Part shown: piece after piece, positions 4,258 to 17,002 of the stretch
How positions within the stretch are numbered: position 1 is the first letter of the stretch
Layout: each line of letters starts with the position of its first letter
Origin: Micromonospora inyonensis
Lineage (GTDB): Bacteria > Actinomycetota > Actinomycetes > Mycobacteriales > Micromonosporaceae
Assembly: GCF_900091415.1 (NCBI RefSeq)
Contig: NZ_FMHU01000002.1
Location: 1 to 64,000 of the forward strand
Length of the DNA stretch: 64,000 nt
Direction of reading: 5' to 3'
The notes under the pieces: model-generated
What the model saw: only the letters and a program-made list of their open reading frames with translations
What the model was told of the DNA's origin: nothing
Databases searched by the model: none
Translations under genes and position numbers: made by a program

Positions 4258-4949
4258 TGTCGTACCCGTCCGATGACCTGGTGCCGCTGCTCGTCCCGCA
4301 GCCCACCGCCGGGGTCCAGCTGAGGCAGGGCATTGTGCGGGCATGGGATCCGACGACAGCGCAGAGCACAGTCGAGGTCGACGGGGTCAACGTCACCGAC
4401 CTACCGGTCCTCAACACCACCGAGGTGCTGGTGCTCGCCCCCGGTGACACGGTGGCCATCCTCACCACCGGGCAGGCTGCCTCGTCGTGGGCGATCCTCG
4501 GCCGGCTCACCATCCCCGGCTCCCCGGCTGCGGCGTCGGCCCTGGACGCGATCCGCACCACGTCGGAAACGGTGGCCGCCTACGAGACGACGTCCTCGTC
4601 CACCTGGGGGGACCTGGCCACCCCCGGGCCGGTCGTGTCGGACGTGCTGATCGGCCCGTCCGGTAGGTGCCTGGTCCTGATCACGTCCACCATCACCATG
4701 CTCGTCGCGGCCGGCGGCGGGGAAATGGCCTACGAGATCAGTGGAGCCACCACCGTGCCGACGGGTGACACCCCGCCGTCGCTGGCCTACTACGGGCCCG
4801 CCGGGTCCGGACCCACCGCCACCCGGCTGGTACTGCACGAGGGCCTCAATCCGGGCCTGCACACGTTCACCGCGCGCTACGTCTCCGAGATGGATCCCGG
4901 CGGCGAGGCACGGTTCGGCGGCCGGAACCTGACAGTGATCCCCCTCTGA
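4257..4949 (+). CDS. Tail tip / baseplate protein with OB-fold-like N-terminus
   Basis: A 230-residue protein; its GTG shares one base with the upstream TAG. Residues about 20-90 (QGIVRAWDP, then TVEVDGV and LAPGDTVAIL) resemble the OB-fold hub/spike modules of gpV/gp5-type proteins. The rest is a beta-rich region without recognisable motifs. Position between the DUF5047-like protein and another minor tail protein supports a structural role at the tail tip. Confidence 0.55.
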   Translation: MSYPSDDLVPLLVPQPTAGVQLRQGIVRAWDPTTAQSTVEVDGVNVTDLPVLNTTEVLVLAPGDTVAILTTGQAASSWAILGRLTIPGSPAAASALDAIRTTSETVAAYETTSSSTWGDLATPGPVVSDVLIGPSGRCLVLITSTITMLVAAGGGEMAYEISGATTVPTGDTPPSLAYYGPAGSGPTATRLVLHEGLNPGLHTFTARYVSEMDPGGEARFGGRNLTVIPL

Positions 4950-4964
4950 CCACGGAAGGACATC

Positions 4965-5522
4965 ATGGCTGGAGAAACGTCGATATACGGCCTGCCGTAC
5001 CTGGAGCCGGATGACCCGCCGGACATCGCAGGCGCTACCCAGGATCTCGCCGAGGCGGTCGAGACGGAGCTGCAGCGCATCGAGTCGACACCGCAGCCGG
5101 TCGACGCGCACCAGGCCGCCAACGACACGACGTCGTCGCAGGCATACCAGCCGGGCACCACCCACGGGACAGCGTTCACCGCCCCGCCTAGCGGCCGGGT
5201 GTACATCACTGTCTCCGCCTCGCTGGGCACCAACGCCGTCACGTCCGTAGCCGGCTCCCTGCTGGCGTTCGAGGTGCGCATCGGCAGCTCCGTCGGATCC
5301 GGCACCGTCGCCGTGACCGCCGACGACACCCGCGCGGCAGGCCCGTGGCGGCCCAACAACTCCGACGTCGGCTACAAGTACTCGCCTGCCGAGCGGCGGA
5401 CCCTGGTGCCCGGACTGACCCCGGGCGGTGCCTACAACGTGCGGTCGCTGTTCCGCAGCGACACGTCGGGTGCCACGGCGGCGGTGCTCAACCGGTATGT
5501 ACTCGTCGAACCGTCTCCATAG
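4965..5522 (+). CDS. Minor tail protein
   Basis: A 185-residue protein with a clear GGAAGGA ribosome site. The opening YGLPYLEPDDPPDIAG followed by an amphipathic helix is typical of short tail-fibre or receptor-side proteins of actinobacteriophages, where it probably forms the trimerising stem. The Ser/Thr/Gly-rich beta part (about 60-185) would be the exposed head. No depolymerase motif is seen. Confidence 0.55.
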   Translation: MAGETSIYGLPYLEPDDPPDIAGATQDLAEAVETELQRIESTPQPVDAHQAANDTTSSQAYQPGTTHGTAFTAPPSGRVYITVSASLGTNAVTSVAGSLLAFEVRIGSSVGSGTVAVTADDTRAAGPWRPNNSDVGYKYSPAERRTLVPGLTPGGAYNVRSLFRSDTSGATAAVLNRYVLVEPSP

Positions 5523-5532
5523 GGAGGAACTG

Positions 5533-5778
5533 ATGTTCTCTATCGAAGAGTGGCGGCTCTCGGGCTGGCTGCTCGCCCGCCGCGACATCCCCGAATCTGA
5601 GCGTCAGGGGCTGCTGGACGCGAACCTCGCCGACGGGAACGTGTACTCGCAGGACGACCCGACGCCGGAGCAGATTCCGCCACCGCCGAAGACCGTTTTC
5701 CGGTTCGTTGACGCCCCGGTCATCGAGGAACCCGTCGAGATCCCAGAACCCCCCGAGGTTCCCGAGGAGGGGCAGTGA
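5533..5778 (+). CDS. Small acidic proline-rich protein, unknown
   Basis: An 81-residue protein beginning MFSIEEWRLSGW, with AGGGAGGA seven bases before the ATG. An N-terminal helix is followed by an acidic tail rich in Pro and Glu (many PEP/PPP steps). Its stop overlaps the endolysin GTG. Position suggests a tail-tip accessory or a lysis-linked protein; nothing in the sequence decides. Confidence 0.65.
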   Translation: MFSIEEWRLSGWLLARRDIPESERQGLLDANLADGNVYSQDDPTPEQIPPPPKTVFRFVDAPVIEEPVEIPEPPEVPEEGQ

Positions 5779-6719
5779 TCGTCTCTGGGGTCAGGTACGT
5801 CGCCGGACGTAACGCCTACAGCGACCGGGACAGCACGAAATGCGGCATCGCGATCCACAACACCAGCAACGACGCGAGCGCCGAGCAGGAAGCAAGCTAC
5901 GCCACCAGACGCACAGACGAGGTCAGCGCGCATTTCTACGTCGACGCTGACTCGGTGATCCAGTCGCTGGACACCCGGGCCCGCGCCGGTCACGCCGGTT
6001 CCAGCACCGGTAACGAGAACGCCATCGCGGTGGAGATCACCGGGGTCAACGGCTGGACCAGGGAGCAGTGGCTCCAGCGGGTGGCGTGGGACCGGCTCGC
6101 CCAGGTGCTCGCCGTCGTGTGCCGCGAGTACGACATCGCCCCCCGCCGCGCCACCGTCGTCGAGATGACGTCCAACCCCCGGGTCCGGGCTTTCTACGGC
6201 CACGACGACATGCGCCGGGCGTGGGGTGGCACCACGCACACCGACCCCGGCCCCAACTTCCCCTGGGACCACCTGCTGACCAAGGTCCAGCACGCGCTGG
6301 CCGGAGAGGACGACGACATGCCCAGCGCCGATGAGGTCGCTGCCGAGGTGTGGAGCCAGCCGTACCGCGACTACAACCTGCCGCCGGTCGACGGCAAGCC
6401 GGCGGTGCGGCCGACGTCCGCGATCCTGCTCGACGCCCGTACCGACGCAGCCCGCACCCGAGCTGAGGTGACCGCGCTCCGCAGCGAGGTGCGGGCCCTG
6501 ATCGACGCGCAGCAGGGTGTCGACGGCCGGGCGATCCTCGCCCGCCTCGACGAGCACGCCCAGGCCGAACGGGAGCGCGACGAGGCCGCCGCCCGCCGGG
6601 ACGCCGACCTGCTCGCCCTCGTCCAGCAGGGACAGGACGGGACGCTCGACGCGGCGGAGGTGCTCCGACGGATGGGCGAGCTGCTCGCCACCGCCGGCCA
6701 GGGGCAGGCACGTGAGTGA
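5775..6719 (+). CDS. Endolysin: N-acetylmuramoyl-L-alanine amidase (Amidase_2/PGRP type)
   Basis: A 314-residue lysin predicted to cut the MurNAc-L-Ala bond of peptidoglycan at the end of infection. The zinc ligands of amidase_2 are visible: His28 (IAIHNT), His155 and Asp157 in THTDPGPNFPW, with a conserved GHAGSSTGNENAIAVEI stretch around 72-88. Residues from about 195 form a charged coiled coil rather than a recognised wall-binding domain. The GTG start overlaps the previous stop, and holin-like genes follow with four-base overlaps, giving a lysis cassette. There is no signal peptide, so release should depend on a holin. Confidence 0.9.
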   Translation: MIVSGVRYVAGRNAYSDRDSTKCGIAIHNTSNDASAEQEASYATRRTDEVSAHFYVDADSVIQSLDTRARAGHAGSSTGNENAIAVEITGVNGWTREQWLQRVAWDRLAQVLAVVCREYDIAPRRATVVEMTSNPRVRAFYGHDDMRRAWGGTTHTDPGPNFPWDHLLTKVQHALAGEDDDMPSADEVAAEVWSQPYRDYNLPPVDGKPAVRPTSAILLDARTDAARTRAEVTALRSEVRALIDAQQGVDGRAILARLDEHAQAERERDEAAARRDADLLALVQQGQDGTLDAAEVLRRMGELLATAGQGQARE

Positions 6720-6982
6720 CGCTGCAGCAACGCATCCCGCTGGTGCGGGACCTCACCACGCTCGCCGCCGGGGTGGCGGGGTTCGCGTACGCGTTGAAGA
6801 CGGGCGCGGACTGGCCGGCGTTGCTCGTGAGCGCCGCGCTGATGGCCGGGCCGGGGGTCGTGCATCTGCTGCTGGCGGGGCATACCCCGGGCGCAGCGTT
6901 GTCGTCGGCGCCAGCATCGCCGGCACCGCCCTCGCCCTCGCCGCTGCCCTCGTCCGCGCCCTCGGCGGGTGATCCGCGGTGA
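6716..6982 (+). CDS. Small membrane protein, putative holin
   Basis: An 88-residue protein with two hydrophobic stretches (about 14-27 and 33-54) and a C-terminal tail rich in Ala, Pro and Ser. The GTG start overlaps the endolysin stop. Two membrane segments next to an amidase fit a class II holin, but a better holin candidate lies at 7276-7539, so this could be an antiholin or accessory lysis protein. Confidence 0.5.
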   Translation: MTLQQRIPLVRDLTTLAAGVAGFAYALKTGADWPALLVSAALMAGPGVVHLLLAGHTPGAALSSAPASPAPPSPSPLPSSAPSAGDPR

Positions 6983-7215
6983 GCCCGTACAGGCGGCCTG
7001 TCCCGGTGTGGTACGCGCTGCTCGCCGTCCTAGTGTCCGTGCTGGCCGTGTCGGGGGCGGGTATCTGGTATACGCACCGCGCGCAGGCCGACGCCGATCA
7101 GCGGTGGTGTGAGCTGCTGACTGTGCTGGCGGACCGGAGTCCGCCGCCGGAGACGGAGCGCGGCCAGCGGATCGCGCTGGAGGTCGCCGAGCTGCGCGCC
7201 TCGCTTGGCTGCTGA
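6979..7215 (+). CDS. Single-span membrane protein of the lysis cassette
   Basis: A 78-residue protein: N-terminal basic stretch, one membrane helix (about 11-30), then an extracellular-side region of about 45 residues ending in a helix and a Cys. The layout is that of an inner-membrane spanin-like or Rz-like protein, although Gram-positive hosts do not need a classical spanin. It overlaps the preceding gene by four bases (GTGA). Confidence 0.5.
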   Translation: MSPYRRPVPVWYALLAVLVSVLAVSGAGIWYTHRAQADADQRWCELLTVLADRSPPPETERGQRIALEVAELRASLGC

Positions 7216-7228
7216 CCTGACCAACCTC

Positions 7229-7253
7229 GGCCCGGACCGCGCTGGTCCGGGCC
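7229..7253. terminator. Perfect 10-bp hairpin between lysis genes
   Basis: GGCCCGGACC at 7229-7238 pairs with GGTCCGGGCC at 7244-7253 around a five-base loop. There is no T-run, as is usual in GC-rich actinobacteria. It lies inside the lysis cassette, so it may be a leaky terminator, an mRNA-stabilising hairpin or a timing element in front of the holin gene. Confidence 0.55.
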
Positions 7254-7275
7254 TCGTCGTACCTGGAGGCACCTC

Positions 7276-7539
7276 ATGGAGTACGGACCCACCCAGCCCG
7301 GCAGCACCGTGCCGGCCTCGCAGAGCACCGAGCCGCTGTGGACCGTCGGCGGCATCACCGCGGCGGTCACCGCGACCCTCGCTCTCCTCGTCGCGTTCGG
7401 CCTGGAGGTGACCGACGAGCAGGAGACCGCGATCCTCGGTGTGGTGGCGGTGGTCGCGCCGCTGATCGTGACCGCGGTCGCCCGTGGCCGGGTGTACGCC
7501 CCGGCGACCGTGGCGCGGCTGCTGTCCGGTCGCCGGTAG
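7276..7539 (+). CDS. Holin-like protein
   Basis: An 87-residue protein with membrane helices at about 23-43 and 52-70, a short connecting segment (EVTDEQETA) and a basic C-terminus. This compact two-helix pattern with TDEQ between the helices is common among actinobacteriophage holins. ATG with GGAGG eight bases upstream. It is the last rightward gene before the convergent terminator. Confidence 0.65.
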   Translation: MEYGPTQPGSTVPASQSTEPLWTVGGITAAVTATLALLVAFGLEVTDEQETAILGVVAVVAPLIVTAVARGRVYAPATVARLLSGRR

Positions 7540-7596
7540 GATCACCAGCGCGGTGCCCCCGTTGACGGCCGTCCGGAGGGTGCCGACCAAACAACC

Positions 7597-7636
7597 AGCG
7601 CCCCCACTCTGGCCTCGCGGCCGGGGTGGGGGCGCT
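7597..7636. terminator. Bidirectional terminator between convergent operons
   Basis: An 11-bp perfect stem, AGCGCCCCCAC at 7597-7607 with GTGGGGGCGCT at 7626-7636; the loop holds a further GGCC/GGCC pair. It sits between the end of the lysis genes (+) and the end of the minus-strand cassette (stop at 7661). Its arms nearly repeat those of the hairpin at 8472-8502. Confidence 0.8.
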
Positions 7637-7660
7637 TCGCTGTGTTCGGACCCGGGTGGA

Positions 7661-8074
7661 TCAGCGGCGACCGTCACGAATCTGGTAGAGACGTGCCGGC
7701 TTGACCCTGGCAGCGTTGGCGATGTCGGCGCGCGGCAGTTCGGTGCGAAGGGCAGCGCGGATCAGCTCGTCGCGGCGGGCCACCAGCTCCGCGTGCCCCT
7801 CCTCCAGCTTGGCGATCTCGGCGGCGGTGTCGTCGATGTCGGACAGCAGGATTTGCGCGCTGGTGGCCACCGCACCGACCATGTACGACTCGGCGATTGC
7901 CTGCGAGACGACCTCGACGCCGGATGGGGTGAGGGTGCGGGTGTCGGCATCCCAGAGGTCGGGGTCGTCCGCGATCTGGTCGACCATGACGGCGACGGAC
8001 TCGAGGGCGGCGGCGAGGGTGTCGATGTCGTGGCGGTCCTGGATGGCGCGGGCAAGGTCGTCGATGCTGGTCAC
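7661..8074 (-). CDS. Small protein with C-terminal helix-turn-helix
   Basis: A 137-residue protein read from GTG 8074, which overlaps the stop of the upstream GNAT-like gene as GTGA; the open frame continues upstream but runs through that gene. Residues about 80-105 form a charged helix. The end (ELPRADIANAARVKPARLYQ) reads as a helix-turn-helix of the type that recruits DNA by a final recognition helix. It may be the regulator of its own operon through the palindromes at 8432-8467; that link is inference. Confidence 0.6.
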   Translation of the reverse strand: MTSIDDLARAIQDRHDIDTLAAALESVAVMVDQIADDPDLWDADTRTLTPSGVEVVSQAIAESYMVGAVATSAQILLSDIDDTAAEIAKLEEGHAELVARRDELIRAALRTELPRADIANAARVKPARLYQIRDGRR

Positions 8075-8421
8075 CACTGGTCTCCGTCTTCGTCGGCGTA
8101 CAGGTTGGCGCAGCAGGTGTTGCAGTCGGGCATGACGAGTCCGCCAACGCGCTCGGCGAAACGGTTGCCGTCGTCGGTGCGGTGGCTGACGGGCGCGTGG
8201 AAGATGTCGATCTCGCTGGCGGCCTGCTGGTAGAGGGCGGTGGCGTGTCCCTGGCCCCGGTGGTCTTCGTGGGTCCAGACGTTGAGGATCTCGCCGGTGG
8301 CAATCTCGACCCACAGCTCCGCGATGCGCTCGCCGTCGATGGTGATGGACCAGAGGTGATCGATGCGGGTTTCGCCGGGGTAGGTGTCGAGGGTGCGGGT
8401 GATGGTTGCCGTCGCCGTCAT
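8071..8421 (-). CDS. GNAT-like N-acetyltransferase (small)
   Basis: A 116-residue protein. WVEIATGEILNVWTHEDHRG followed by QGHATALYQQA carries the R/Q-G-x-G/A acetyl-CoA loop of GNAT enzymes; substrate unknown. The C-terminus has an unusual CNTCCANL cysteine cluster. I chose ATG 8421 because the promoter -10 (TATACG, 8430-8435) lies eight bases upstream and would place the transcript start at or near that codon. An in-frame ATG at 8427 lies too close to the -10. Confidence 0.6.
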   Translation of the reverse strand: MTATATITRTLDTYPGETRIDHLWSITIDGERIAELWVEIATGEILNVWTHEDHRGQGHATALYQQAASEIDIFHAPVSHRTDDGNRFAERVGGLVMPDCNTCCANLYADEDGDQW

Positions 8422-8429
8422 GCCCATAG

Positions 8430-8467
8430 CGTATAGCGCGCTTTAGGGGCCTGTCAAGCGCGCTATA
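8430..8467 (-). promoter_or_regulatory. Leaderless promoter covered by two AGCGCGCT palindromes
   Basis: On the minus strand TTGACA (8452-8457) and TATACG (8430-8435) are 16 bp apart. TATAGCGCGCT (8432-8442) and its inverse AGCGCGCTATA (8457-8467) overlap the -10 and touch the -35 box. Each arm contains the self-complementary octamer AGCGCGCT. This is the arrangement of a repressor operator that blocks polymerase. It drives the GNAT/HTH pair only. Confidence 0.75.
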
Positions 8468-8471
8468 GAAA

Positions 8472-8502
8472 CGCCCCCACTGCCTGCGTGGCGGTGGGGG
8501 CG
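8472..8502. terminator. 13-bp hairpin upstream of the GNAT promoter
   Basis: CGCCCCCACTGCC (8472-8484) pairs with GGCGGTGGGGGCG (8490-8502) with one T-G wobble and loop TGCGT. It lies four bases beyond the operator and would stop minus-strand transcripts leaving the translocase gene. With 7597-7636 it brackets the GNAT/HTH cassette. Confidence 0.7.
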
Positions 8503-8681
8503 CTTCGTGCTGTCCGAGCCCGGACGTCGGTGGCCTGCTGGTCGGGCACCCCACCGCCCTCGGGCGTGGCCGGTGCCGTCGGAGTGGCCGCGTCGACCCG
8601 GTCAGCGTGCCGGCCCTGCGGCGGGTGGGGCAACCCTCGACGCCGCGCCTGTGGATAACCCTCGCATCTTGTGGACAGCAG
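8503..8681. other. Non-coding stretch with two DnaA-box-like sites; candidate origin or transfer locus
   Basis: Between two strong hairpins there is no credible gene. TGTGGATAA (8650-8658, the reverse of TTATCCACA) and TGTGGACAG (8670-8678, the reverse of the actinobacterial-type CTGTCCACA) lie in the same orientation 20 bp apart. The octamer AACCCTCG occurs at 8632-8639 and 8657-8664. A plasmid-type origin, or the cis-acting transfer site that often lies at the 3' end of traB genes, would fit here. Two boxes alone are weak evidence. Confidence 0.35.
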
Positions 8682-8714
8682 AGCGCCCCGCCACCGTGCT
8701 GGTGGCGGGGCGCT
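8682..8714. terminator. Terminator of the translocase operon
   Basis: A perfect 14-bp stem, AGCGCCCCGCCACC at 8682-8695 and its complement at 8701-8714, with a five-base loop. It starts nine bases after the translocase stop codon on the minus strand. Confidence 0.8.
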
Positions 8715-8722
8715 TCTGGGTG

Positions 8723-10678
8723 TCACGCGGCGAGACTGTGCGCCTTCTCCGTTGCCGTGTACCGGGCCGCCGGGCCCTTGCCGGTCTTCGTCAGGTAGCC
8801 GTGCGCCTGCAACTCGGACGCGAGTTGGTAGAAGCGGCTCGACCCCAGCCCGACGGCCTCCATGACGTCCTTCGGCTGCTGACGGCCACCGCCCACCGCG
8901 TCGAGGATCCGCCGGTGGCTGTCGGACAGGTCGAGCGTCGGCGGCTCCATCGACCCCGGCCACACCGGGAACACCACGTCCTCCAGCAGTTCTGCCACGA
9001 CCTGCGGAGGGACGCCCGTCGCGGTGGCTGCCGCAACCGAAGGTGACACCGGCGGCGGGGTGTGGATGCCGGCCTGTCGCTGCTGGCGGCGCTTCAACGC
9101 CTCCGCCTTCGCCTTCACCCGTACAAGCTTCCGCTCGTCGTAGGCCGGACCGAATGCAGCAGCTTCCGGCGGGGACAAGGACAGCCAGCGAAGCTGCTTC
9201 GGCAGAGTCTCCACCTGCTCGTCGGTGACCCGAAAGCCCCGGAACGCCGCACCACGCGACTCGTCGACCATGCGGGCGTAGCCGGGGATGTCGGGGAAGT
9301 CACGCGGATCGTAGGGCAGCTTGAGCACGTCCTTGATCGACCCGCTCTTGATGCGCAAGACCACCCCGTTGCCGGTGAGGAGAGCGCCTCGCAGTGCGTC
9401 GGCGGCGTCGCCGGTGCCGAACGCCCGGTTGAGGTTGGCGGACTGAGTGGCGGCGATGACCGCGAAGCCCACCTTCCGGAACTCGGTGATCATGTTGGCG
9501 ACCGTGTACTGGATGTCGTCGTGCTCGAAGAACTTGTGGCACTCGTCGATGACCAGGATCAGGCCGGGACGGTCCTCGGTCGCGGTGAACCCTTCCAGGT
9601 CGTCCAACAGCATGTCGTCGAAGCGGGCTTCGGCTACCAGGTGCAGACCAGCGAGCATCGTGCGGAGCTGGTCGGCGGTGCCGGCGAAGTAGTCGCAGTG
9701 ATCGCGTAGCAGCTTCGACGACGCGCCGGTTTCGCCGTGCCCGTCGGCGAAGAACACCGCCGTCGGCGTTGAGGCGACGACCGACATGACGATGCCTTCC
9801 ATCATGCGGGTCTTCCCCGACCCCTGAGCGCCGACGAGGAAACCGCCCCAGATGGAGTTCGACGAGTACACCCGCCACTGCGCGTACCCGTCCCCGTCGA
9901 CGTGTGGGCCGAGCGCCACCTTGCCGGTCGTCGGGTTGTACGCCTCCGGGCCGGGCCACACGTTGTCGCGCTTGAGCACGGGAGCGGCTTCCAACACGGT
10001 CACCCGGATGTACGACTGGTCGCGGCTAGGGTGGTGCTCCACCACCAGCTCGTCGGTGGCGCGCAAGCCGAGGCCGGTGCGGATCTTCCCAGCCGCGCCG
10101 GTGACGGTGGCGAGCTCCTGCTTGCCGGGAACGAGCTGCACCGTGAACCGAGCACCACCCTCCACCGGTTTCTCGTCCATGGCCACGGAGCCGGTGAGGG
10201 CGGCACCAGGGCCAGCGAGGTTCGCCTTCCACCGCTGCACGTACGGACGCTCGTCGACCTTCCGGCGGGCGGGGCCGGGGTCGATGCGGTGCTCCCGCCA
10301 CCAGTGCAGGGCCAGGCCGTACCCGAACGCCATGAGGATGCCGACCGCGCCGAGGCTGAGGCCGGTGACGGTGACTCCGGTGAGCCAGCCGGCGGCTGTG
10401 GCGATGAACGCCACCGCGCGGGCGGTGGCCTTCGGGCCGAACACCCGCCGCTTCCGGGACACGACCGCGGCGGCGACCACAGCGACGACGAAAGCGGTGC
10501 CGGCCACGAACTGCGCCACGGTGGCCTCGTCGCCGGTGAGGTGCACGGCGGTGCGGGCGGCACCGGCGGCGAGAACGAGCGCACCCACGGCGACGTGAGG
10601 TGCCCTCTGTGCGGACAGGTCCACGCGTCGTGCTCGGGTGGGGGCGTCCGGTCCGGACACCACGGTCTTGGTGGTCAT
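8723..10678 (-). CDS. FtsK/SpoIIIE-type DNA translocase, TraB/TraSA-like conjugation protein
   Basis: A 651-residue membrane ATPase. The start is ATG 10678 behind GGGAGA; the open frame runs 81 codons further upstream but that stretch is Pro/Arg-rich and non-coding in character. Hydrophobic segments lie at about 29-46, 57-73 and 86-125. Then come the motor domain with Walker A GAQGSGKT (283-290), Walker B LILVIDE (373-379) and sensor-like AATQSANLNR (409-418). The C-terminus (about 580-651) is a winged helix like the FtsK gamma domain. In actinomycete plasmids and AICEs one such protein moves double-stranded plasmid DNA between cells after binding short repeats (clt). A chromosome-segregation FtsK would be longer, with a bigger membrane part. 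Finding this gene in a phage genome with complete structural genes is the oddest feature here. Confidence 0.85.
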   Translation of the reverse strand: MTTKTVVSGPDAPTRARRVDLSAQRAPHVAVGALVLAAGAARTAVHLTGDEATVAQFVAGTAFVVAVVAAAVVSRKRRVFGPKATARAVAFIATAAGWLTGVTVTGLSLGAVGILMAFGYGLALHWWREHRIDPGPARRKVDERPYVQRWKANLAGPGAALTGSVAMDEKPVEGGARFTVQLVPGKQELATVTGAAGKIRTGLGLRATDELVVEHHPSRDQSYIRVTVLEAAPVLKRDNVWPGPEAYNPTTGKVALGPHVDGDGYAQWRVYSSNSIWGGFLVGAQGSGKTRMMEGIVMSVVASTPTAVFFADGHGETGASSKLLRDHCDYFAGTADQLRTMLAGLHLVAEARFDDMLLDDLEGFTATEDRPGLILVIDECHKFFEHDDIQYTVANMITEFRKVGFAVIAATQSANLNRAFGTGDAADALRGALLTGNGVVLRIKSGSIKDVLKLPYDPRDFPDIPGYARMVDESRGAAFRGFRVTDEQVETLPKQLRWLSLSPPEAAAFGPAYDERKLVRVKAKAEALKRRQQRQAGIHTPPPVSPSVAAATATGVPPQVVAELLEDVVFPVWPGSMEPPTLDLSDSHRRILDAVGGGRQQPKDVMEAVGLGSSRFYQLASELQAHGYLTKTGKGPAARYTATEKAHSLAA

Positions 10679-10757
10679 CGTGTCTCCCTCGGGTGTCCCG
10701 GCTTCCACCGCACGGCGCAGACCGGGGAGGGCCTGCGCCGCACGGCGGGAGTCGGGG

Positions 10758-11051
10758 CTACTCGCCGGTGACGAACCGCTTGTTACCGGCGTCCGGGACG
10801 GCCTGGTACGCCTCGGTGACGGTGGTCTGCTTCGCCAGATCGGCGGCGGCCCGCTCCCACGCGGCAGCGGCCTGCGCGGACATCTCCTGCGCGGTGGCGA
10901 CCGTGGCGATGGTGCCGTCACCGACCTCGAAGTTCCTCAGGGCGGCGACGTACTGCTCGCCACCGGCGGTGGACGCGGCCCGGTGGGCGGCGGCCATGCC
11001 CCGGGCGAACGCGATGGCGGTGGGCAGGCCGGTGATTTCGGCGTTGGACAT
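10758..11051 (-). CDS. Internal in-frame start: separate 97-residue MSNAEI-type protein
   Basis: ATG 11051 lies in the same frame as the longer protein and is preceded by AAGGAGG at ideal distance. A free 97-residue protein (MSNAEITGLP to NKRFVTGE, all-helical, Ala-rich) should therefore be made as well as, or instead of, the fusion. Either two ancestral genes have fused by loss of a stop, or the gene makes two products on purpose. Confidence 0.6.
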   Translation of the reverse strand: MSNAEITGLPTAIAFARGMAAAHRAASTAGGEQYVAALRNFEVGDGTIATVATAQEMSAQAAAAWERAAADLAKQTTVTEAYQAVPDAGNKRFVTGE

Positions 11052-11795
11052 GGGTGCCTCCTTGATAGTGGGGAACATTGGGATGACGGTGGCGAGCGGC
11101 TGGGTGTCAGCCGGGTCGCTGGTCGGGCGGTTGTGGAACTCGTCGGCGAGCTGATCCCACGTCTTGCCGGTGGTGTGGGAGGACAGCCACCCGCACCGGT
11201 CGCAGTTCTGGTCGGCGGTGTCCGAGCTGGTGGGGTCGCCCGGCCAGCAGCGAGTGCCGATGATCCGGCCGTCGAAGCAGCCGGGCCGGTTGCATCGAGC
11301 GCGGCTGTCCGACTGGTCGGGGGTGGTGACGTCCGGTTCACAGACGGGGCAGCGGGTGGAGCCGTCCGACTGGAGGGACAGGAGCACAAGGTTACAGCGG
11401 GGGCATGTCGGGTTGCCCTTGGTGAGCAGGTCCATCTCGTCGGGGGCGGGGGTCAGCCAGTCCGGCTCGGCGGCCGGCTTGGTGTCAGCGGCCGGCTTGG
11501 TGTCGGCGGGTCGCACCTCGGCAACGTCGAGCATGTCGTCGACCGGCTGCCGGGCGGCCTTGGCCTTCGCCCGTCGATTCTCGGTGTGCGCCACCAGCGC
11601 GTCCGAGCGCAGGTCGGCGAGCCAGTCACGGGTGCCGTACCGGGGCTGGCCCTGGACCGGCTGACCGGCGGCGAGCGCCTTCTGCTTCTTCAGCTCGTAG
11701 CGGGGGTTCGGCTTCCCCGACCACGCGTACAGCACGTCCTGCGTGGCCGTCTTCGCCATCCAGGTCAGCACCCAAATCCAGAACAGGATCTCCAC
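10758..11795 (-). CDS. Transfer-module protein: membrane helix plus zinc ribbons fused to an MSNAEI-type domain
   Basis: A 345-residue open frame from GTG 11795, three bases after the previous stop. An N-terminal hydrophobic helix (2-14) is followed by KPNPRYELKKQKALAAG and PRYGTRDWLADL, a pattern I associate with proteins next to traB in streptomycete plasmids. Cysteine pairs at 131/134 and 149/152, and 168/173/183/198/201, could form zinc ribbons. The last 97 residues are a helical Ala-rich domain that has its own ribosome site (next entry). Likely a membrane-anchored partner of the translocase; the exact role is unknown. Confidence 0.65.
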   Translation of the reverse strand: MEILFWIWVLTWMAKTATQDVLYAWSGKPNPRYELKKQKALAAGQPVQGQPRYGTRDWLADLRSDALVAHTENRRAKAKAARQPVDDMLDVAEVRPADTKPAADTKPAAEPDWLTPAPDEMDLLTKGNPTCPRCNLVLLSLQSDGSTRCPVCEPDVTTPDQSDSRARCNRPGCFDGRIIGTRCWPGDPTSSDTADQNCDRCGWLSSHTTGKTWDQLADEFHNRPTSDPADTQPLATVIPMFPTIKEAPMSNAEITGLPTAIAFARGMAAAHRAASTAGGEQYVAALRNFEVGDGTIATVATAQEMSAQAAAAWERAAADLAKQTTVTEAYQAVPDAGNKRFVTGE

Positions 11796-11798
11796 GGG

Positions 11799-12173
11799 TT
11801 ACCGCCCCGCCCGCTGCATGGTCTTCGTCGACACGAGGAACGACACGGCGACGGCGGCCAGGGCGAGGCCGACGGTGGTCGTGCCCACCCAGTCTCCGAG
11901 GGTGTCGTTCGCCCACCCCCACAGGTCGCCGAGTCGGGCGTTGATCCAGTCGGGGATCGTGCCGTTGATCGACACGATCAGCGAGGGCAACACGAACGCG
12001 CCGATCACCGCGTACTGGTTCGGGACGCGGTCTTTGGCGATGTCGATGGCGATGATGATCAGCGCGCCGAGGGCGGCGACGACCAGGACGGTTGAGGCGA
12101 GGCCAACGCCGACCAGGCCAGCGCCGCCGATGACGGCGAGCGCGAACCCGATCCAGGCCAGAGGCTTCATCAT
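11799..12173 (-). CDS. Membrane protein of the transfer module (Spd-like)
   Basis: A 124-residue protein with a GAAGGAGA ribosome site, about three membrane helices (about 5-25, 27-45, 95-115) and a loop containing PNQYAVIGAFVLPSLIVSIN. Small multi-span proteins encoded beside traB are the rule in actinomycete conjugative elements, where they help DNA spread through the mycelium. Assignment rests on context. Confidence 0.6.
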   Translation of the reverse strand: MMKPLAWIGFALAVIGGAGLVGVGLASTVLVVAALGALIIIAIDIAKDRVPNQYAVIGAFVLPSLIVSINGTIPDWINARLGDLWGWANDTLGDWVGTTTVGLALAAVAVSFLVSTKTMQRAGR

Positions 12174-12193
12174 GGTGATCTCTCCTTCGGGGG

Positions 12194-12676
12194 TTAGAGG
12201 AACAGCCAGAGCGCGAACGCCACGCCCGGCTTGACGACGTGCTCGACAGCCCAATCGGCCGGCGGCAGCTCGGACAGGAACTTGACGGTCAGCGCGGTGA
12301 CGATCAGCCGGGCGGGCCGCGCCACGATCCACTCGCGGATCCGCGACCAGGTGAGGTAGGGGATCGCCACCAGGCGGGCGTAGGCCATGCCGGCGAACCG
12401 GACCGGCCCGTCGTGGCGGGACGTCCACGGGGCCCGGTCGGCGTACGCGCGGATCTGGTCGATGCCGGGGGCCTTCTCGGTGAGCGGTGACGGCAGCGTG
12501 AAGTACGCCTTGACAGCCTGCCACCGCCGCACCCCGGCGTCACCGTCGGTAATCGGAGAGTGGAGAGTTTCCGGCTTGCCTGCCGGGGTTTCGCGCTTGA
12601 CGGGGGAGGGTCGGAACTGTCCAGTGGAGAGTGGAGAGTTACGCAGCGTGGGCCTGTGGCCGTTGGTGACGGTCAC
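12194..12676 (-). CDS. Membrane-associated protein of the transfer module
   Basis: A 160-residue protein. GTG 12676 overlaps the preceding stop as GTGA, which I prefer to an in-frame ATG four codons upstream. Residues 1 to about 45 are polar and repetitive at DNA level (see repeat 12,555-12,640). The C-terminal half has hydrophobic stretches around 115-130 and 145-160, ending FALWLFL. No catalytic motif. Spd-like by position. Confidence 0.55.
   Translation of the reverse strand: MTVTNGHRPTLRNSPLSTGQFRPSPVKRETPAGKPETLHSPITDGDAGVRRWQAVKAYFTLPSPLTEKAPGIDQIRAYADRAPWTSRHDGPVRFAGMAYARLVAIPYLTWSRIREWIVARPARLIVTALTVKFLSELPPADWAVEHVVKPGVAFALWLFL
12555..12640. repeat. Two copies of a GGAGAGT tandem heptamer pair
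   Basis: GGAGAGTGGAGAGTT occurs at 12,555-12,569 and again at 12,626-12,640, 71 bp apart. Each is two tandem GGAGAGT heptamers. They lie inside the 5' part of a coding gene with no obvious protein-level reason, and could be binding sites for the translocase or a plasmid protein. Confidence 0.5.
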
Positions 12677-12798
12677 GCCGACCACCATCCGAGCGCCACG
12701 GCGACCATGCCGACGGTGAGGAACAGGGCGGCGAGGCCGACGAGGAATCCGGGTCCGGCGTCACCGCGACGGTGCGCCCGGTTGGTGTAGTGGGACAT
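12673..12798 (-). CDS. 41-residue single-span membrane protein
   Basis: Starts MSHYTNRAHRR at ATG 12798 and contains one membrane helix (about 18-38, GFLVGLAALFLTVGMVAVAL). Its TGA overlaps the next GTG, so translation is coupled. A basic N-terminus suggests the helix enters with its start inside the cell. A small transfer-module protein of unknown role. Confidence 0.65.
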   Translation of the reverse strand: MSHYTNRAHRRGDAGPGFLVGLAALFLTVGMVAVALGWWSA

Positions 12799-12832
12799 GA
12801 TGAGGGTCCTGCCTCTCTCTGTGGGTAGGTGA

Positions 12833-12877
12833 CCCGGGGCGCGGCGCTGCTTTGGTCGGCGGGGGCCGCGCCCCGGG
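12833..12877. terminator. Long hairpin inside the transfer operon
   Basis: CCCGGGGCGCGGC (12,833-12,845) pairs perfectly over 13 bp with GCCGCGCCCCGGG (12,865-12,877). It lies four bases after the stop at 12,881 and upstream of the 41-residue gene, so it could attenuate the distal genes, including the translocase. Confidence 0.6.
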
Positions 12878-12880
12878 GCG

Positions 12881-13030
12881 TCATCGGGTGGTGGTCTTGG
12901 CGGCGATGCGGTCGAGGGCGTCGGCCACGTGGACCAGTCCGGCGTCGCGGATCTGCTGGCGCACGCGGGCGTGCTCGGTGGGGTCGGTGGTCGTGATGAG
13001 CCGGCGCTCGAGTTCGGCGAGCCGGGTCAC
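12881..13030 (-). CDS. 49-residue charged helical protein, unknown
   Basis: Reads MTRLAELERRLITTTDPTEH and ends AAKTTTR. GTG 13030 overlaps the stop of the preceding gene (GTGA). It is almost entirely predicted helix with alternating charge, like short coiled-coil partners. No family recognised. Confidence 0.6.
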   Translation of the reverse strand: MTRLAELERRLITTTDPTEHARVRQQIRDAGLVHVADALDRIAAKTTTR

Positions 13031-13230
13031 CGGGAGGCCTCCGTCTCGAAGCGCTGCCAGCCGGTGACGGTCAGCCCCGGCTGGCCCGTCTGGGTGCGCA
13101 GGTACGACTGGATGGCCTCGATGTCGGCGGGGCTCTGGATGCCGGCCGGCAGGGTGATCGACGTCCAGCCGCGGCTGGACCTGGTCACGAAGCTGACGAA
13201 GTGGGTCGGCGGCGCGGTCGTAGTGGGCAT
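13027..13230 (-). CDS. 67-residue protein, unknown
   Basis: ATG 13230 with GAAGGAGA ahead of it. The sequence MPTTTAPPTHFVSFVTRS is followed by a small mixed alpha/beta body (PADIEAIQSYLRTQ, then GLTVTGWQRFE). Similar small proteins accompany plasmid transfer genes in actinomycetes, but I cannot name a family. Confidence 0.6.
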   Translation of the reverse strand: MPTTTAPPTHFVSFVTRSSRGWTSITLPAGIQSPADIEAIQSYLRTQTGQPGLTVTGWQRFETEASR

Positions 13231-13232
13231 GA

Positions 13233-14480
13233 TCAGTTCTCCTTCGTCCCGGCCAGCTCGTGGGAGTGGCCGTTGACCTTCTGAGCGGGTGGCTGCGCCA
13301 CGGTGCGCAGTTGAGTCAGGTGCCGGCGCAGCGTCGCGTCCGGCACGCCGGCAGCGCGGGCCGCGCCACGGATCGAGTCCTTCTTGCGCAGGACCGCGTC
13401 GGCGGCCTGCGCCAGGGCCGCGTCACGGTCGGCAGGCGGGGCGCTTACCGGGCGCCGCATCACCACCTCGCGAGTGCGCCGCTGGGGTGCGTCGTACCGC
13501 GTCAGAGTGGAGGTGACCTGCGGTGACGCAGGCTGCGCGGACTGCGCCACGGGCGCGTCATCTGGCTGCGCCACCGGTGCGTCAACCCGAGCCGGCTCGT
13601 GCGTCACCGGCAGGGCCGGCGGCGCGTCAACGGGCCCGCCGAGGGTGGCCGGTGACGCGGGTGCGGCGGGGTGCGCCAGGGCCGGCGCGGTGAGGTTCAG
13701 GTCCGCGATCCGCGGTGCGCCATCCCACGGCTTCGCCTCGCTGGCGTAGTCGACGAGAACCCCGATCAGCCACGCGACCACGGCCGCGCCGACCGCCCCC
13801 ACCGAGTGCGCCAGGGCCTCACCGAGCGCCGTCACCGAGTCGTGCTTGCCGGTCCAGCCGCCCAGCAGGTTCAGGGCGACGGAGAAGAACAGCGCGCCCC
13901 ATTTGGCGACGTCCGCCCGCCGGTCGGTTTGCCCACCGGACATCCGTAGGACCGACCCGGCGAGGATGATCCCGACCGCCACCGCGATCAGCAGCGGCTC
14001 CACCCCCCACGCGGCCCACCAGCCGGCCGAGCCCCGCTCCAGGTCCAGCAGCTCGACCATGCCCCGCTGCACGCCGGGCGTGGAGTAGGCGGCGAACCCG
14101 GCCACGAGGGGCAGGCCCAGCAGCAGGGCGTACCGGCGCACCCCGGCCACCCGCAGCGCCCGCACCTCGGCGGACCGCTGAATCTCGGCGCGGATACGGG
14201 CTCGGGTGCCGGACCGGGCGGCCCGCCGGTACAGGGCGGCCAGCTCGGCGCCCTCGATTTCGTCGCGGTCGCGTTCGCGGCGGGCCCGCCGGCGGGTCGT
14301 GGACTGCTCGTCGACGGCGGCCAGGGCGTCGCGGTGCTCGGCGTCGAGGCGGCGGCGCTCCTGCTGGTCGGTGCGCTGGACGTCGATGATGGCGCGTTCT
14401 TCGGCGAGGGCTGCGGCCAGGTCCTTGGCGGTCTGGGCCGGCTGCTGGCTCCGGTCAGTCAGCTTCATGCCGGTCATCAT
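13233..14480 (-). CDS. Multi-span membrane protein with C-terminal HTH, DUF2637/SpdB-like
   Basis: About 415 residues, counted from ATG 14480; ATGs at 14477 and 14468 are alternatives, and no strong ribosome site is present. Residues 1-110 are a highly charged coiled coil. Four hydrophobic segments follow (about 117-133, 157-178, 193-210, 220-245), as in the DUF2637/SpdB membrane proteins of actinomycete plasmids. After a Pro/Ala-rich linker (about 260-340) the end carries a helix-turn-helix (ADAVLRKKDSIRGAARAAG, VPDATLRRHL). A DNA-binding membrane protein would suit tethering of plasmid DNA for transfer. It heads the leftward transfer operon. Confidence 0.65.
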   Translation of the reverse strand: MMTGMKLTDRSQQPAQTAKDLAAALAEERAIIDVQRTDQQERRRLDAEHRDALAAVDEQSTTRRRARRERDRDEIEGAELAALYRRAARSGTRARIRAEIQRSAEVRALRVAGVRRYALLLGLPLVAGFAAYSTPGVQRGMVELLDLERGSAGWWAAWGVEPLLIAVAVGIILAGSVLRMSGGQTDRRADVAKWGALFFSVALNLLGGWTGKHDSVTALGEALAHSVGAVGAAVVAWLIGVLVDYASEAKPWDGAPRIADLNLTAPALAHPAAPASPATLGGPVDAPPALPVTHEPARVDAPVAQPDDAPVAQSAQPASPQVTSTLTRYDAPQRRTREVVMRRPVSAPPADRDAALAQAADAVLRKKDSIRGAARAAGVPDATLRRHLTQLRTVAQPPAQKVNGHSHELAGTKEN

Positions 14481-14485
14481 GGCAC

Positions 14486-14517
14486 AGAGTTGCCAGAGTT
14501 CCAAAGGTTGCTAGCCT
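14486..14517 (+). promoter_or_regulatory. Divergent control region with head-to-tail AGAGTTGCC-like repeats and a rightward promoter
   Basis: AGAGTTGCC (14,486), AGAGTTCC (14,495) and AAAGGTTGC (14,503) follow each other at 8-9 bp; a fourth, AAAGTTGC, lies at 14,587. TTGCCA (14,490-14,495) and TAGCCT (14,512-14,517), 16 bp apart, read as a rightward promoter overlapping the repeats. A protein binding here could control both the transfer operon and the excisionase-like gene. Confidence 0.55.
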
Positions 14518-14617
14518 TCACGACATGTCGCCACCCACCGCTCCCGCGCTCGCCCTGCCCTGTCTGCGATCATCGAGAGACTCGCCAAAGTTGCGAGCGT
14601 CGGCAGGGAGGGCGACC

Positions 14618-14830
14618 GTGGACTCAGATTGGCTCACCGTGAAGCAGGTGACGGATGTCGTCCAGGCTGCCGGCTACCCGGACAAGGTCGACACGATTCG
14701 CCGCCGCGTCGATGCCGGAAAGTTCGGCGAGCAGGGACAGGACTGGTACCGGTCGGAGAGCGGCTACCGGTTCGTGCGGCGGGCCGCGGTGGAGGAGTTC
14801 ATCCGACGTCGCCGAGCTGGCGACCAGTAG
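14618..14830 (+). CDS. Excisionase-like small DNA-binding protein
   Basis: A 70-residue protein from GTG 14618 behind GGGAGGG. WLTVKQVTDVVQAAGYPDK followed by DTIRRRVDAGKF and VRRAAVEEFIRRRRAG matches the winged helix of the excisionase/MerR-like HTH_17 group. An earlier ATG at 14525, seven bases from a -10 box, would add 31 Ser/Pro/Arg-rich residues; I consider it less likely. It could be the directionality factor of the serine integrase or a regulator of the transfer genes. Confidence 0.6.
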   Translation: MDSDWLTVKQVTDVVQAAGYPDKVDTIRRRVDAGKFGEQGQDWYRSESGYRFVRRAAVEEFIRRRRAGDQ

Positions 14831-14842
14831 CCCACGCAGAGA

Positions 14843-14873
14843 ACCGCCCCCGGCCAGCAGGCGCGGGGGCGGT
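14843..14873. terminator. 10-bp hairpin after the excisionase-like gene
   Basis: ACCGCCCCCG (14,843-14,852) pairs perfectly with CGGGGGCGGT (14,864-14,873), 12 bases after the stop codon. Confidence 0.75.
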
Positions 14874-14905
14874 GGTGTGTCCAGGGTTAGGTTGAGCGGC
14901 CACGT

Positions 14906-14965
14906 ACCTGGGGGCCCCAGGATCCCCGGACCCCAGGTTGTCAACTCCGGCGTCGTTCGTACGGT
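14906..14965 (+). promoter_or_regulatory. Leaderless promoter and CCTGGGG operator of the GntR gene
   Basis: CCTGGGG at 14,907 and the inverse CCCCAGG at 14,915-14,921 form a palindrome; a third half-site, CCCCAGGT, at 14,931-14,938 touches the -35 box TTGTCA (14,938-14,943). The -10 TACGGT (14,960-14,965) follows after 16 bp and lies six bases from the GTG start. This is what an autorepressed regulator would show. Confidence 0.65.
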
Positions 14966-14971
14966 TCGCCC

Positions 14972-15382
14972 GTGATTGACCCTCGCGCCGAGCGGGCCGT
15001 CTACCAGCAGCTCGCCGACCTGCTGCGAGGGCTGATCGCGTCCGGGCAGGTGAAACCCGGTGCGCTACTGCCGTCGAGTAAGACCCTGGAGCAGACCCAC
15101 GGGGTCAGTCGGGAAACGGTGCGCCGGGCACTGGCCGTGCTGCGCGGAGAGGGCCTGGTTGTCACCGAGGGTGGCTACGGTACGCGCGTGGTGCAGCAGC
15201 AGACTCGGCAACATGTCAGGGTTCCTAGATCCGCCCAAATCGTGTGTCGCATGCCGACGGACGCCGAACGCGTGGATCTGGGCATCGAGCTGGGCGAGGT
15301 TGTTCCCGTGGTGACCATCCATGTCGGAGCGCAGACCCGGGGCCCGTACCGCGCCGACATGTTCGACTTCACCACCGCCTGA
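14972..15382 (+). CDS. GntR-family transcriptional regulator (short C-terminus)
   Basis: A 136-residue protein. Residues about 8-75 form the GntR winged helix (YQQLADLLRGLIASGQVKPG, then VSRETVRRALAVLRGEGLV and the GYGTRV wing). The remainder is too short for a normal FadR or HutC effector domain. Short GntR proteins regulate traB-type genes in actinomycete integrative and conjugative elements (KorSA in pSAM2), so this is the likely transfer repressor. The GTG start is leaderless (see the promoter). Confidence 0.85.
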   Translation: MIDPRAERAVYQQLADLLRGLIASGQVKPGALLPSSKTLEQTHGVSRETVRRALAVLRGEGLVVTEGGYGTRVVQQQTRQHVRVPRSAQIVCRMPTDAERVDLGIELGEVVPVVTIHVGAQTRGPYRADMFDFTTA

Positions 15383-15430
15383 CCGACGACTCGGGCACGG
15401 CGGTTGCACGGGCAACGTTCCAGGCATAAC

Positions 15431-15440
15431 GTCACGTGAC
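15431..15440. other. Perfect 10-bp palindrome GTCACGTGAC
   Basis: Lies in the 178-bp gap between the GntR gene and the secreted-protein gene. An imperfect GTTGC/GCAAC dyad precedes it by about 15 bp. Likely regulator site; the protein is unknown. Confidence 0.4.
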
Positions 15441-15483
15441 AGAACCGTATCTATGCAACTTGCGGTAAATCGTCTGCCACGAA

Positions 15484-15512
15484 GAGTTTCCCTGGTCGCA
15501 CAGGTGTACTAA
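15484..15512 (+). promoter_or_regulatory. Putative promoter of the secreted-protein gene
   Basis: GAGTTT (15,484-15,489) and TACTAA (15,507-15,512) are 17 bp apart, in a relatively AT-rich stretch for this genome. A ribosome site GGGGAGG follows before ATG 15561. Confidence 0.45.
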
Positions 15513-15560
15513 GATCGACAGTCTCTACAGGACCCCGGACGTGCGGGGAGGTGCTGGCCA

Positions 15561-16505
15561 ATGTCCATGATCGCCCGCTGGACCCAGCGTGCCATCATCG
15601 CCGCCGGCGGCACCATGCTGGCCCTCGCCGCCCTGGCCGCCCTCGACTCCGACCCGGCCCACGCCGCGGACCGCCCCCTGCCGGCCACCGTGGACCGCGC
15701 CGTCGACCGCGTACTCGACCGGCCCACCCGCGAGCACCCGCCCCGGGTGCTGCCGCGCCGGGACCGGCCACCGCCGGACTGCGACGACCCCGCCGACCGG
15801 CCGCCGCCGACCGAGCCGGACCGCGACGATCCGCCCGAGCCCAGCGAGCCCGCGCCAGCACCCGAGACGCCCGCCGACGAGCCGGCACCCGCCGAGCCAG
15901 AGCCCGACGCGCCGCCCCTCGACGCGCCGCCCGTCGACATCGAGGTACCCGCCCCACCCGGCCCGCCCATCGTGGTGGACCCGCCGGCCCTGCTCCCGCC
16001 GGCCAGCCCCGCCGCACCGGAGCCCGCGCCCGTCGACCCACCCCTCGTCGGCGCCACCCCCGCGCCGCTGCCCACCCCCCGCCCCGCCAGGCCGGCACCC
16101 GTAGCGCCCCCGGTGGAGGTCGACCCGGAGCAGGTGGCCAACCCCCGCGCGGGACCATCCGGACGGCCGGCGCGCCCCGACCGCGGCACCGACCGGGCCG
16201 CCACCACCCGCGACGACGACGTGGAGCCCTGCGACCCGCAGACCCGGCAGGTGCCACGCATCCTCCCCACGCCCGCGCGCCCGGCCGCCGCTGACCGGCC
16301 CGACCGGTGTGGCCACGGCCCCGGCGCCTGGGTCGACAGCCCACCACCGCCCGTCTCCAAGCCACCCGGCGGCGGGCACGAGATGCAGGGACTGGCCGCC
16401 ACGGCCACCGTCGACACCGACACCCTCGACCGGCTCACCGTCGCCCGAGCCCGCGCACACCTGACCGGCCGCGACGGCGAGGCTCTCGACCCACGGCCTG
16501 CCTGA
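15561..16505 (+). CDS. Secreted proline-rich protein, unknown
   Basis: 314 residues. The N-terminus is a standard signal peptide (basic 6-10, hydrophobic 12-27, cleavage expected after AHA near 36). Almost all of the mature part up to residue 200 is Pro, Ala, Glu and Asp: a long unstructured extracellular spacer. The end (about 225-314) has a few Cys and a short helical part. It stands alone between the GntR gene and the integrase, outside the lytic operons, so it could be expressed from the prophage and alter the host surface or superinfection. No enzymatic motif. Confidence 0.65.
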   Translation: MSMIARWTQRAIIAAGGTMLALAALAALDSDPAHAADRPLPATVDRAVDRVLDRPTREHPPRVLPRRDRPPPDCDDPADRPPPTEPDRDDPPEPSEPAPAPETPADEPAPAEPEPDAPPLDAPPVDIEVPAPPGPPIVVDPPALLPPASPAAPEPAPVDPPLVGATPAPLPTPRPARPAPVAPPVEVDPEQVANPRAGPSGRPARPDRGTDRAATTRDDDVEPCDPQTRQVPRILPTPARPAAADRPDRCGHGPGAWVDSPPPPVSKPPGGGHEMQGLAATATVDTDTLDRLTVARARAHLTGRDGEALDPRPA

Positions 16506-16968: not shown

Positions 16969-17002
16969 TTTGCAATCCCTCACAGTGGTGGCGGATTGCA
17001 AA
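16969..17002. repeat. 10-bp inverted repeat next to the integrase: terminator and/or attP candidate
   Basis: TTTGCAATCC (16,969-16,978) and GGATTGCAAA (16,993-17,002) flank a 14-bp centre. They lie between convergent genes, so a bidirectional terminator is one explanation. The arms are AT-rich compared with every other hairpin here, and a dyad directly beside a serine integrase is where attP is expected. Confidence 0.5.

Follow-up and report, generated by a model that had tools for sequence, protein, structure and literature searches.

The first 64,000 bases of contig C2 of Micromonospora inyonensis (3,600,009 bases, in a 6.92-Mb genome of four contigs), hereafter the window, contain a siphophage-type prophage in which a gene for an FtsK/SpoIIIE-like DNA translocase lies on the strand opposite to the lysis genes. 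This arrangement raises the question of whether the phage carries the transfer genes of an actinomycete plasmid and, if so, whether it might also move between cells without virions. The TraB-type matches of the translocase, the recurrence of its gene cassette beside terminase genes, and the relatives in PhiNon1 and in terminase-free plasmids together give a plasmid-type tra region inside a phage good support from sequence comparison. We regard it as fairly probable that the element is a temperate Micromonospora siphophage with an actinomycete plasmid-type tra cassette that spreads as virions and by contact; the cassette would then have the DNA-transfer function that its relatives suggest.

The translocase and its family

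The translocase gene (8723-10,678, minus strand) encodes 651 amino acids (aa) from its ATG, the longest open reading frame (ORF) extending to 10921. A simple hydropathy scan places three hydrophobic segments in the N-terminal part of the protein. Walker A (GAQGSGKT) is located at residue 283 and Walker B (LILVIDE) at residue 373, and G283, G288, K289 and E379 in these motifs are invariant in 12 of 12 sequences. A winged helix is predicted at about residues 585-650, where HTH_IclR and MarR_2 match residues 583-632 under the cut-off (E 0.007 and 0.04; HTH_IclR at 590-631). The C-terminal region also matches phrog_6336 (1e-4), and winged-helix-type regulator chains are found among the profile matches, as are chains of FtsK, EssC/EccC and HerA. 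These motifs and matches bear out the strand, the Walker motifs and the winged helix that the original prediction had described.

A profile of 21 family members was compared with 21 proteins and with reversed and shuffled copies, disregarding three rows that were wrong-frame translations (rel_L054, rel_L069 and rel_L073). A Nocardiopsis plasmid protein that is itself a tblastn relative (rel_L055) scored 300 bits. Among the four named comparators, pCQ4 TraB was the best with 109 bits across the N-terminal part and the motor, followed by pIJ101 Tra with 42 bits in separate motor and winged-helix stretches, versus 34 bits for the host FtsK (L101, so labelled from its top PF01580 score) and 22 bits for E. 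coli FtsK, both in the motor only. With hhalign, pCQ4 TraB reached 99.6 and pIJ101 Tra 98.3 over 416 columns, extending into the C-terminal domain; the values were 97.2-97.8 for EccC-like proteins, 95.7 for E. coli FtsK, 95.0 for the host FtsK, 94.9 for own_L114/L115, 52.8 for own_L109 and at most 1.3 for reversed copies. We call the protein TraB-like because of the pCQ4 and pIJ101 matches, and the comparison favours the TraB-type proteins of actinomycete plasmids over FtsK as its group.

Searched alone by tblastn, the window translocase matched none of 50,697 phage records and 22 of the 72,556 plasmid records; the PhiNon1 translocase likewise had no match among the phages and matched 96 plasmid records. 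In the scan of genome contigs, the one-protein query gave 0 loci and the alignment query 15.

The cassette in the prophage and in other genomes

The cassette occupies the minus strand between the lysis genes (holin 7276-7539) and the att site, opposite the lysis and late genes. From upstream to downstream it encodes proteins of 415, 67, 49, 41, 164, 124, 345 and 651 aa, followed by a GNAT-like and a helix-turn-helix (HTH)-like protein. The translocase, for which at least five preceding small or membrane genes had been predicted, thus has seven genes upstream in the same direction. The 345-aa partner (cl2; 10758-11795) has an N-terminal hydrophobic stretch, a Cys-rich middle and a conserved C-terminal part, and the 124-aa membrane protein (cl4; 11799-12173) has four hydrophobic segments. 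Upstream of them lie the 164-aa protein (cl1; 12194-12688) and, between 12673 and 13230, three small genes of 41 aa (with one hydrophobic segment), 49 aa and 67 aa, as judged from ORF calls and hydropathy. The 415-aa protein (13233-14480) has hydrophobic segments and a C-terminal HTH_psq-like stretch that falls just under the cut-off. It occupies the slot that is taken by DUF2637-HTH_psq proteins in two relatives (G004 and G013b) and by a true DUF2637 protein in PhiNon1; it has no DUF2637 match in Pfam, and the HTH_psq end is what it has in common with the DUF2637 relatives.

The regulator gene is divergent from the cassette: a GntR-family protein of 136 aa is encoded on the plus strand at 14972-15382 (PF00392 5.5e-16), confirming the GntR gene that had been noted nearby, and its family profile matches the GntR proteins of pIJ101, pCQ4 and pZL12. 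Between the two, a 70-aa protein (14618-14830, plus strand) has a weak HTH_17/excisionase-like match and homologues beside the cassette in G004 and G013b; a G024 member of this cluster was left out since it looks like another ORF. Downstream of traB, library matches identify the 118-aa GNAT-like protein (8071-8427, minus strand) and the 138-aa HTH-like protein (7661-8077, minus strand), neither of which has a clustered homologue in the other mapped elements. The layout of GntR gene, small and membrane proteins and translocase resembles the transfer regions on plasmid gene maps, as originally proposed.

Window positions 48,414-64,000 repeat positions 1-15,585 with 99.99% identity, giving a period of 48,415 in the long contig, and this repeat stops at C2:65,404 (= window 16,989), beyond which the sequence differs. 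Contig C1 begins within the element: C1:1-13,860 corresponds to window 30,841-16,980 read in reverse (99.98%) and is followed by different sequence. Consequently, attL is found on C1 and attR on C2, and the window itself contains, at 16,980-16,989, an attP (phage-to-phage) junction; a common core of about GTGGT was read by eye from the contig junctions. Because all three are present, the genome contains an integrated 48,415-bp prophage plus a circular, concatemeric or tandem form, and the contig data fit all three of the latter. The 48.4-kb period of the original prediction therefore stands, but not a circle alone. By eye, the empty site would encode MFDTYVTVVGNVLTAPEWRR..., which we take to be the start of an SSB protein; the prophage thus appears to be inserted at the 5' end of a host gene that is presumably ssb-like. 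The phage itself also encodes an SSB (26767-27234; PF00436 1.3e-23).

A contig that has a repeat and starts inside the element might suggest that the tra genes came from another replicon and were joined by an assembly error. We consider this extremely unlikely because both copies carry the cassette with identical phage flanks and because other prophages are arranged alike; in two of these, the contig also bears late genes homologous to those of the window (tail genes in G004; capsid, portal and other genes in G024).

In a genus sample of 151 genomes, the own one included, 12 had a translocase match and 8 a strong one (E < 1e-60). Outside the own genome there are eight strong loci in seven genomes, not counting fragments in G013:C3, and in five of the eight (G013 twice, G094, G004 and G024) the contig also has a phrog_9 terminase at a distance of 16-25 kb. 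The cassette contig of G084 is only 4.1 kb, and the terminase of that genome is on another contig. Among six IMG/VR contigs found by alignment, four have a terminase and two (108-113 kb) do not; G153 and G154, with terminase scores equal to those of G024 and G004, are probably the same phages as those genus loci. With PhiNon1, in which both terminase and portal are present, the translocase occurs in nine distinct terminase-bearing elements (the window, G013a, G013b, G094, G004, G024, G151, G152 and PhiNon1), and it lies opposite the terminase strand in all except G013a, where the terminase and portal matches disagree in strand. No phrog_9 match was found in five plasmids with related translocases (W02-W06). 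The same gene set was to be sought in other phages, and it was found beside a terminase at five further genus loci, with a relative in PhiNon1.

Nine elements were mapped: the window, L001, G013a, G013b, G024, G094, G004, G113 and G148. Homologues of cl1, cl2 and traB are present in all nine and of cl4 in eight; the order cl1-cl4-cl2-traB is kept in eight, and a cl2 homologue lies directly upstream of traB in every one. In the traB cluster, wrongly linked proteins from the DUF2637 position of G094, G113 and G148 were ignored. Such homologous cassettes in a fixed order in other genomes indicate that the arrangement is more than chance. Partner proteins are also related beyond the genus: the C-terminal 114 profile columns of cl2 match a protein of an Amycolatopsis linear plasmid cassette (hhalign 97.2), cl1 matches a protein of the Amycolatopsis (FU40) plasmid cassette (94.3) and one of PhiNon1 (88.6), and the match of cl4 to the Amycolatopsis plasmid cassette is weak (30.2). 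We also observed that G013 contains two very similar cassettes in two prophage-like loci (C1:3619832 and C1:5390537).

In a translocase tree of 29 rows, from which L075 and L077 were left out and in which the long rows (pIJ101, pCQ4, PhiNon1, L054 and L055) are placed unsurely, the window pairs with L001 (100/100) within a 13-row Micromonosporaceae clade (97/100). This clade comprises eight phage rows, three plasmid-labelled or terminase-free rows and two unlabelled rows. Over the tree, the starred branches require three or more switches between phage and non-phage context, and the labels, which are our own and leave eight rows unlabelled, are still clustered (as low a value came up in 9 and 12 of 500 shuffles). 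To judge from these sequences, movement of the cassette between plasmids and phages is probable.

Such movement raises the alternative that the cassette is a captured plasmid remnant, kept for another benefit such as the exclusion of related plasmids or phages, or on its way to being lost. Its position in an accessory slot near att, its fast-evolving small partners, a broken traB copy in G013:C3 and the downstream GNAT and HTH genes, which are not common to the other elements, would all fit this explanation. In contrast, the traB frame is open in all nine distinct terminase-bearing elements, the motor residues are invariant, and the ratio of nonsynonymous to synonymous substitution rates (dN/dS) of traB is below 1 (0.40-0.54 in four pairs). 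A remnant is, therefore, quite improbable in our judgement.

Known systems and a possible second route of spread

The original prediction had called a hybrid of phage and conjugative element undescribed. The kind is in fact not undescribed, since the plasmid-phage pZL12 shows conjugal transfer and pCQ4 has traA and traB beside terminase, portal and capsid genes. Conjugal transfer of pZL12, a Streptomyces plasmid-phage, requires a tra gene and two neighbours, according to PMC3583192. Like the Micromonospora prophage, pZL12/PhiZL12 (NC_013420, 90,435 bp) is a phage genome in which a GntR gene points away from small genes, one membrane-protein-like gene, one large gene and one FtsK/SpoIIIE-like gene. 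It differs in having ParA/ParB, an annotated integrase/recombinase and about twice the size, its translocase is only distantly related (hhalign 95.5, in the motor), and the cassette partner profiles showed no homology to the five pZL12 partner proteins compared. In this link the layout weighs more than the sequence.

pCQ4 (Streptomyces sp. W75, NC_019307, 84,833 bp) has the order GntR, small genes, traA and traB, then terminase, portal and capsid; unlike the prophage, it has ParB, and its cassette is on the late-gene strand. PhiNon1, a Nonomuraea gerenzanensis plasmid-phage (NZ_LT559120, 59,257 bp), has a DUF2637 gene, small genes, genes for 133 aa and 396 aa, and a TraB-like gene in order. 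A peptidoglycan-recognition gene adjoins this cassette on the other strand, and terminase, portal and a cl1-like protein (hhalign 88.6) are present; however, PhiNon1 has a copy number of 17 and inserts at tRNA-Val, and its translocase is 22% identical to that of the window. Its circular and integrated forms were detected by PCR, and the parts of that report covered here contain no mention of tra genes (PMC5431353). A further plasmid-phage, pFP4, is reportedly known, going by the title of a paper.

The membrane FtsK-type motor with a C-terminal winged helix is shared with pIJ101 Tra, pSVH1 TraB and pWTY27 TraA, the features of the latter two being taken from PMC3583192. pIJ101 also has a GntR regulator, but none of its nine annotated genes is a phage gene and its SpdA and SpdB are not homologous to the prophage partners. 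Actinomycete integrative and conjugative elements (AICEs) of the pSAM2 type, to which the layout had been likened, have an integrase and an FtsK-type Tra in common with the prophage, and pSAM2 has a GntR regulator. The prophage differs from AICEs in its phage-type replication and virion genes and in a Tra below the PF01580 cut-off. In PMC3218068, AICEs are defined by a PF01580 Tra, by RepSA, RepAM or Prim-Pol, and by a tyrosine or serine integrase. The prophage integrase matches PF07508 (1e-9, 39 bits, cut-off 21.1), whereas its Tra has 13 bits against the PF01580 cut-off of 24, and no RepSA, RepAM or Prim-Pol was seen among the 40 of 71 genes scanned with Pfam, a scan that does not include RepSA, which is a profile of that study's own. 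As far as tested, the element is thus not an AICE of this definition.

As far as our searches go, two things are new: an integrated serine-integrase siphophage with lambda-like replication and a tra cassette in Micromonospora, its integrase and replication type being read in the window element, and a set of Micromonospora prophages with one homologous cassette. Literature describing prophages with conjugation genes in this arrangement in these hosts was not found in the sources searched, outside which most subscription journals lie.

In the mechanism that we propose, the GntR protein would hold the divergent cassette low. Upon its release in mycelium that contains an excised circle, the membrane-anchored translocase would assemble into a ring, its winged helix would recognise a site in cis on the circular phage DNA, and double-stranded DNA (dsDNA) would be pumped into the adjoining hypha or compartment. 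Transfer, or spread through the mycelium, may be aided by the conserved small and membrane partners, and the serine integrase would then insert the circle at the ssb-like attB of the recipient. The cassette, in what would be an accessory slot between the lysis genes and attP, could in this way give the phage two routes of spread, virions and contact, the pair reported for pZL12.

The translocase might instead act only within the mycelium, moving or segregating prophage circles across hyphal septa or into spores and not to another strain. In actinomycete plasmids, spd genes serve intramycelial spread. A deletion of pIJ101 spdA2 alters stability and not transfer (PMC4170104). Of the 71 genes predicted for one phage unit, 46 were scanned against at least one family library (40 of 71 against Pfam), and no ParA, ParB or plasmid Rep was found among them, which leaves room for such a segregating role. 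On the other hand, two plasmids with related translocases carry separate ParA/ParB, as do pZL12 and, for ParB, pCQ4, and an integrated prophage needs no partition. On balance we think a role confined to the mycelium unlikely, and transfer by contact remains our preferred reading.

Several observations weigh against that reading. Three FtsK-family host proteins with three domains (two views each; EccC-like is our own label) scored 38-56 bits in the motor only, some of them above pIJ101 Tra, and EccC-like motors are nearly as close to the translocase as pIJ101 Tra is. A host ATPase (own_L111, a 477-aa frame) reached 21.6 bits and hhalign 97.6 over 347 columns, the rest of the host frames being below 7 bits and three control rows being reported below 0, and pZL12 gp071 (23.5 bits, hhalign 95.5) is a distant motor-level match no better than FtsK. 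GntR regulators are generic. The profiles of cl1, cl2, cl4 and cl10 had no match to pIJ101 SpdA or SpdB, the two Spd proteins compared (SpdA2 was left out), so that in the TraB/Spd-type label given originally TraB holds and Spd describes a topology only. The dN/dS values of the partners indicate weak or absent constraint (cl2 0.64 and 0.68, a third pair being identical; cl4 0.28 and 0.98; cl1 1.38 and 0.91). In G113 and G148 the cassette is found in genomes without a terminase match, and the third traB copy of G013 (C3:36-1662) is broken. Finally, k-mer counts found no 8-bp word more than twice behind traB and thus no clt-like repeats there.

A clt is known in the dsDNA plasmid transfer systems, and clt repeats had been suggested for the prophage. 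The k-mer search over one phage unit (47,011 of 48,415 bases) found no convincing cluster. In pWTY27, clt takes in 16 bp of traA and the following 159 bp (PMC3583192); its repeat TGACACC is present once at the traB stop codon of the prophage. Six exact CCCGA iterons at 29259-29288 lie within the phage replication-initiator gene and are better read as a likely phage origin than as clt. In lambda, iterons likewise lie inside gene O.

A noncoding element behind traB (8493-8640) contains the near-palindrome GTCCGAGCCCGGAC (8512-8525) and TTATCCACA, which we take to be DnaA-box-like. Strong copies (E < 1e-10) occur in 8 of the 151 genus genomes, the own one included, and the covariation term of the consensus folding is -1.11 of -38.66 kcal/mol. 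We rejected this element as clt because the copies in G004, G024, G094, G148 and G084 reach 5e-5 at best and because by eye it also lies near holin-like or Rep-like genes elsewhere. One weak copy is a 31-bp stretch 0.6 kb behind the G024 traB, and the carriers G013 and G113 have no listed match. Motifs containing TAGCGCGC were also seen just behind traB in the window (8434-8466) and in G013b and are possibly regulator sites.

We tentatively propose, with less confidence than for the window element itself, that integrated siphoviral prophages of the Micromonosporaceae form a recurrent, unnamed class of conjugative prophages, in which the tra cassette would be a standing phage module for travel of the excised genome as naked dsDNA through and between mycelia. 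Without virions, such a phage could spread in a colony or enter a cell devoid of its receptor, and a working cassette would mean that phage spread in filamentous actinomycetes is not tied to virions and receptors alone. The relatives are medium-sized, integrated prophages that occur in cultured Micromonospora strains and have one homologous cassette, which makes movement by contact directly testable. Furthermore, according to PMC3218068, TraB of pSVH1 binds clt-like chromosomal regions, a finding linked there to chromosomal gene transfer; such prophages might thus offer host genes a second route of transfer.

Phage genes and minor features

Library matches identified the terminase, portal, capsid, tail, lysis and integrase genes that had been expected in the element, as well as a head protease and repressor genes. 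The element is a siphophage type with a serine integrase, and a tailed temperate phage of siphovirus type is the reading that these genes suggest, its tail type included. The large serine integrase (475 aa; 17015-18442, minus strand) matches PF00239 (3.8e-26), PF07508 (1e-9) and phrog_95 (4.5e-71). It is adjoined by a Cro/C1-type repressor-like gene (18442-18960, minus strand), and a BRO-N/KilAC antirepressor gene lies at 19593-20402 on the plus strand. Farther along the plus strand are a lambda-like replication pair (28860-30409), consisting of an initiator (28860-29684) and a DnaC-like helicase loader (29681-30409), the genes for terminase large subunit, portal, head protease and major capsid (37646-43103), and the major tail gene (45844-46350; phrog_2491 2.7e-27). 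The lysis genes (5775-7539, plus strand) encode an amidase endolysin (5775-6719), a small protein with one hydrophobic segment (7006-7215) and the holin. The late genes (terminase, portal, head protease, major capsid, major tail, another tail protein, endolysin and holin) share the plus strand. An exonuclease VIII-like gene and a DNA methylase gene were also found.

An early-region protein (21229-22095) has a GGDEF-domain match (4e-17), and similar genes are present on the cassette contigs of G113, G148 and G084. Before the terminase genes is a 1.1-kb gap without called genes (35924-37056), in which no tRNA was found; 72 bp of it (36301-36372) are 86-88% identical to sequence close to the ends of C1 and C2. 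The perfect palindrome GTCCGGGCCCGGAC (window 20419-20432) occurs at five places in the 6.92-Mb genome, whose positions assign them to one site of the prophage (C2:20419 and C1:10408) and one of a second element (C1:1109455, C3 and C4). This second, mobile-looking element is represented by contigs C3 (18.8 kb, L005) and C4 (18.4 kb, L006), with a related site at C1:1109359. By eye, its genes include integrase-like, XRE, lysin-like and Rep-like ones, with a dnaX-like gene on C4, and C3 and C4 look like variants of one element.

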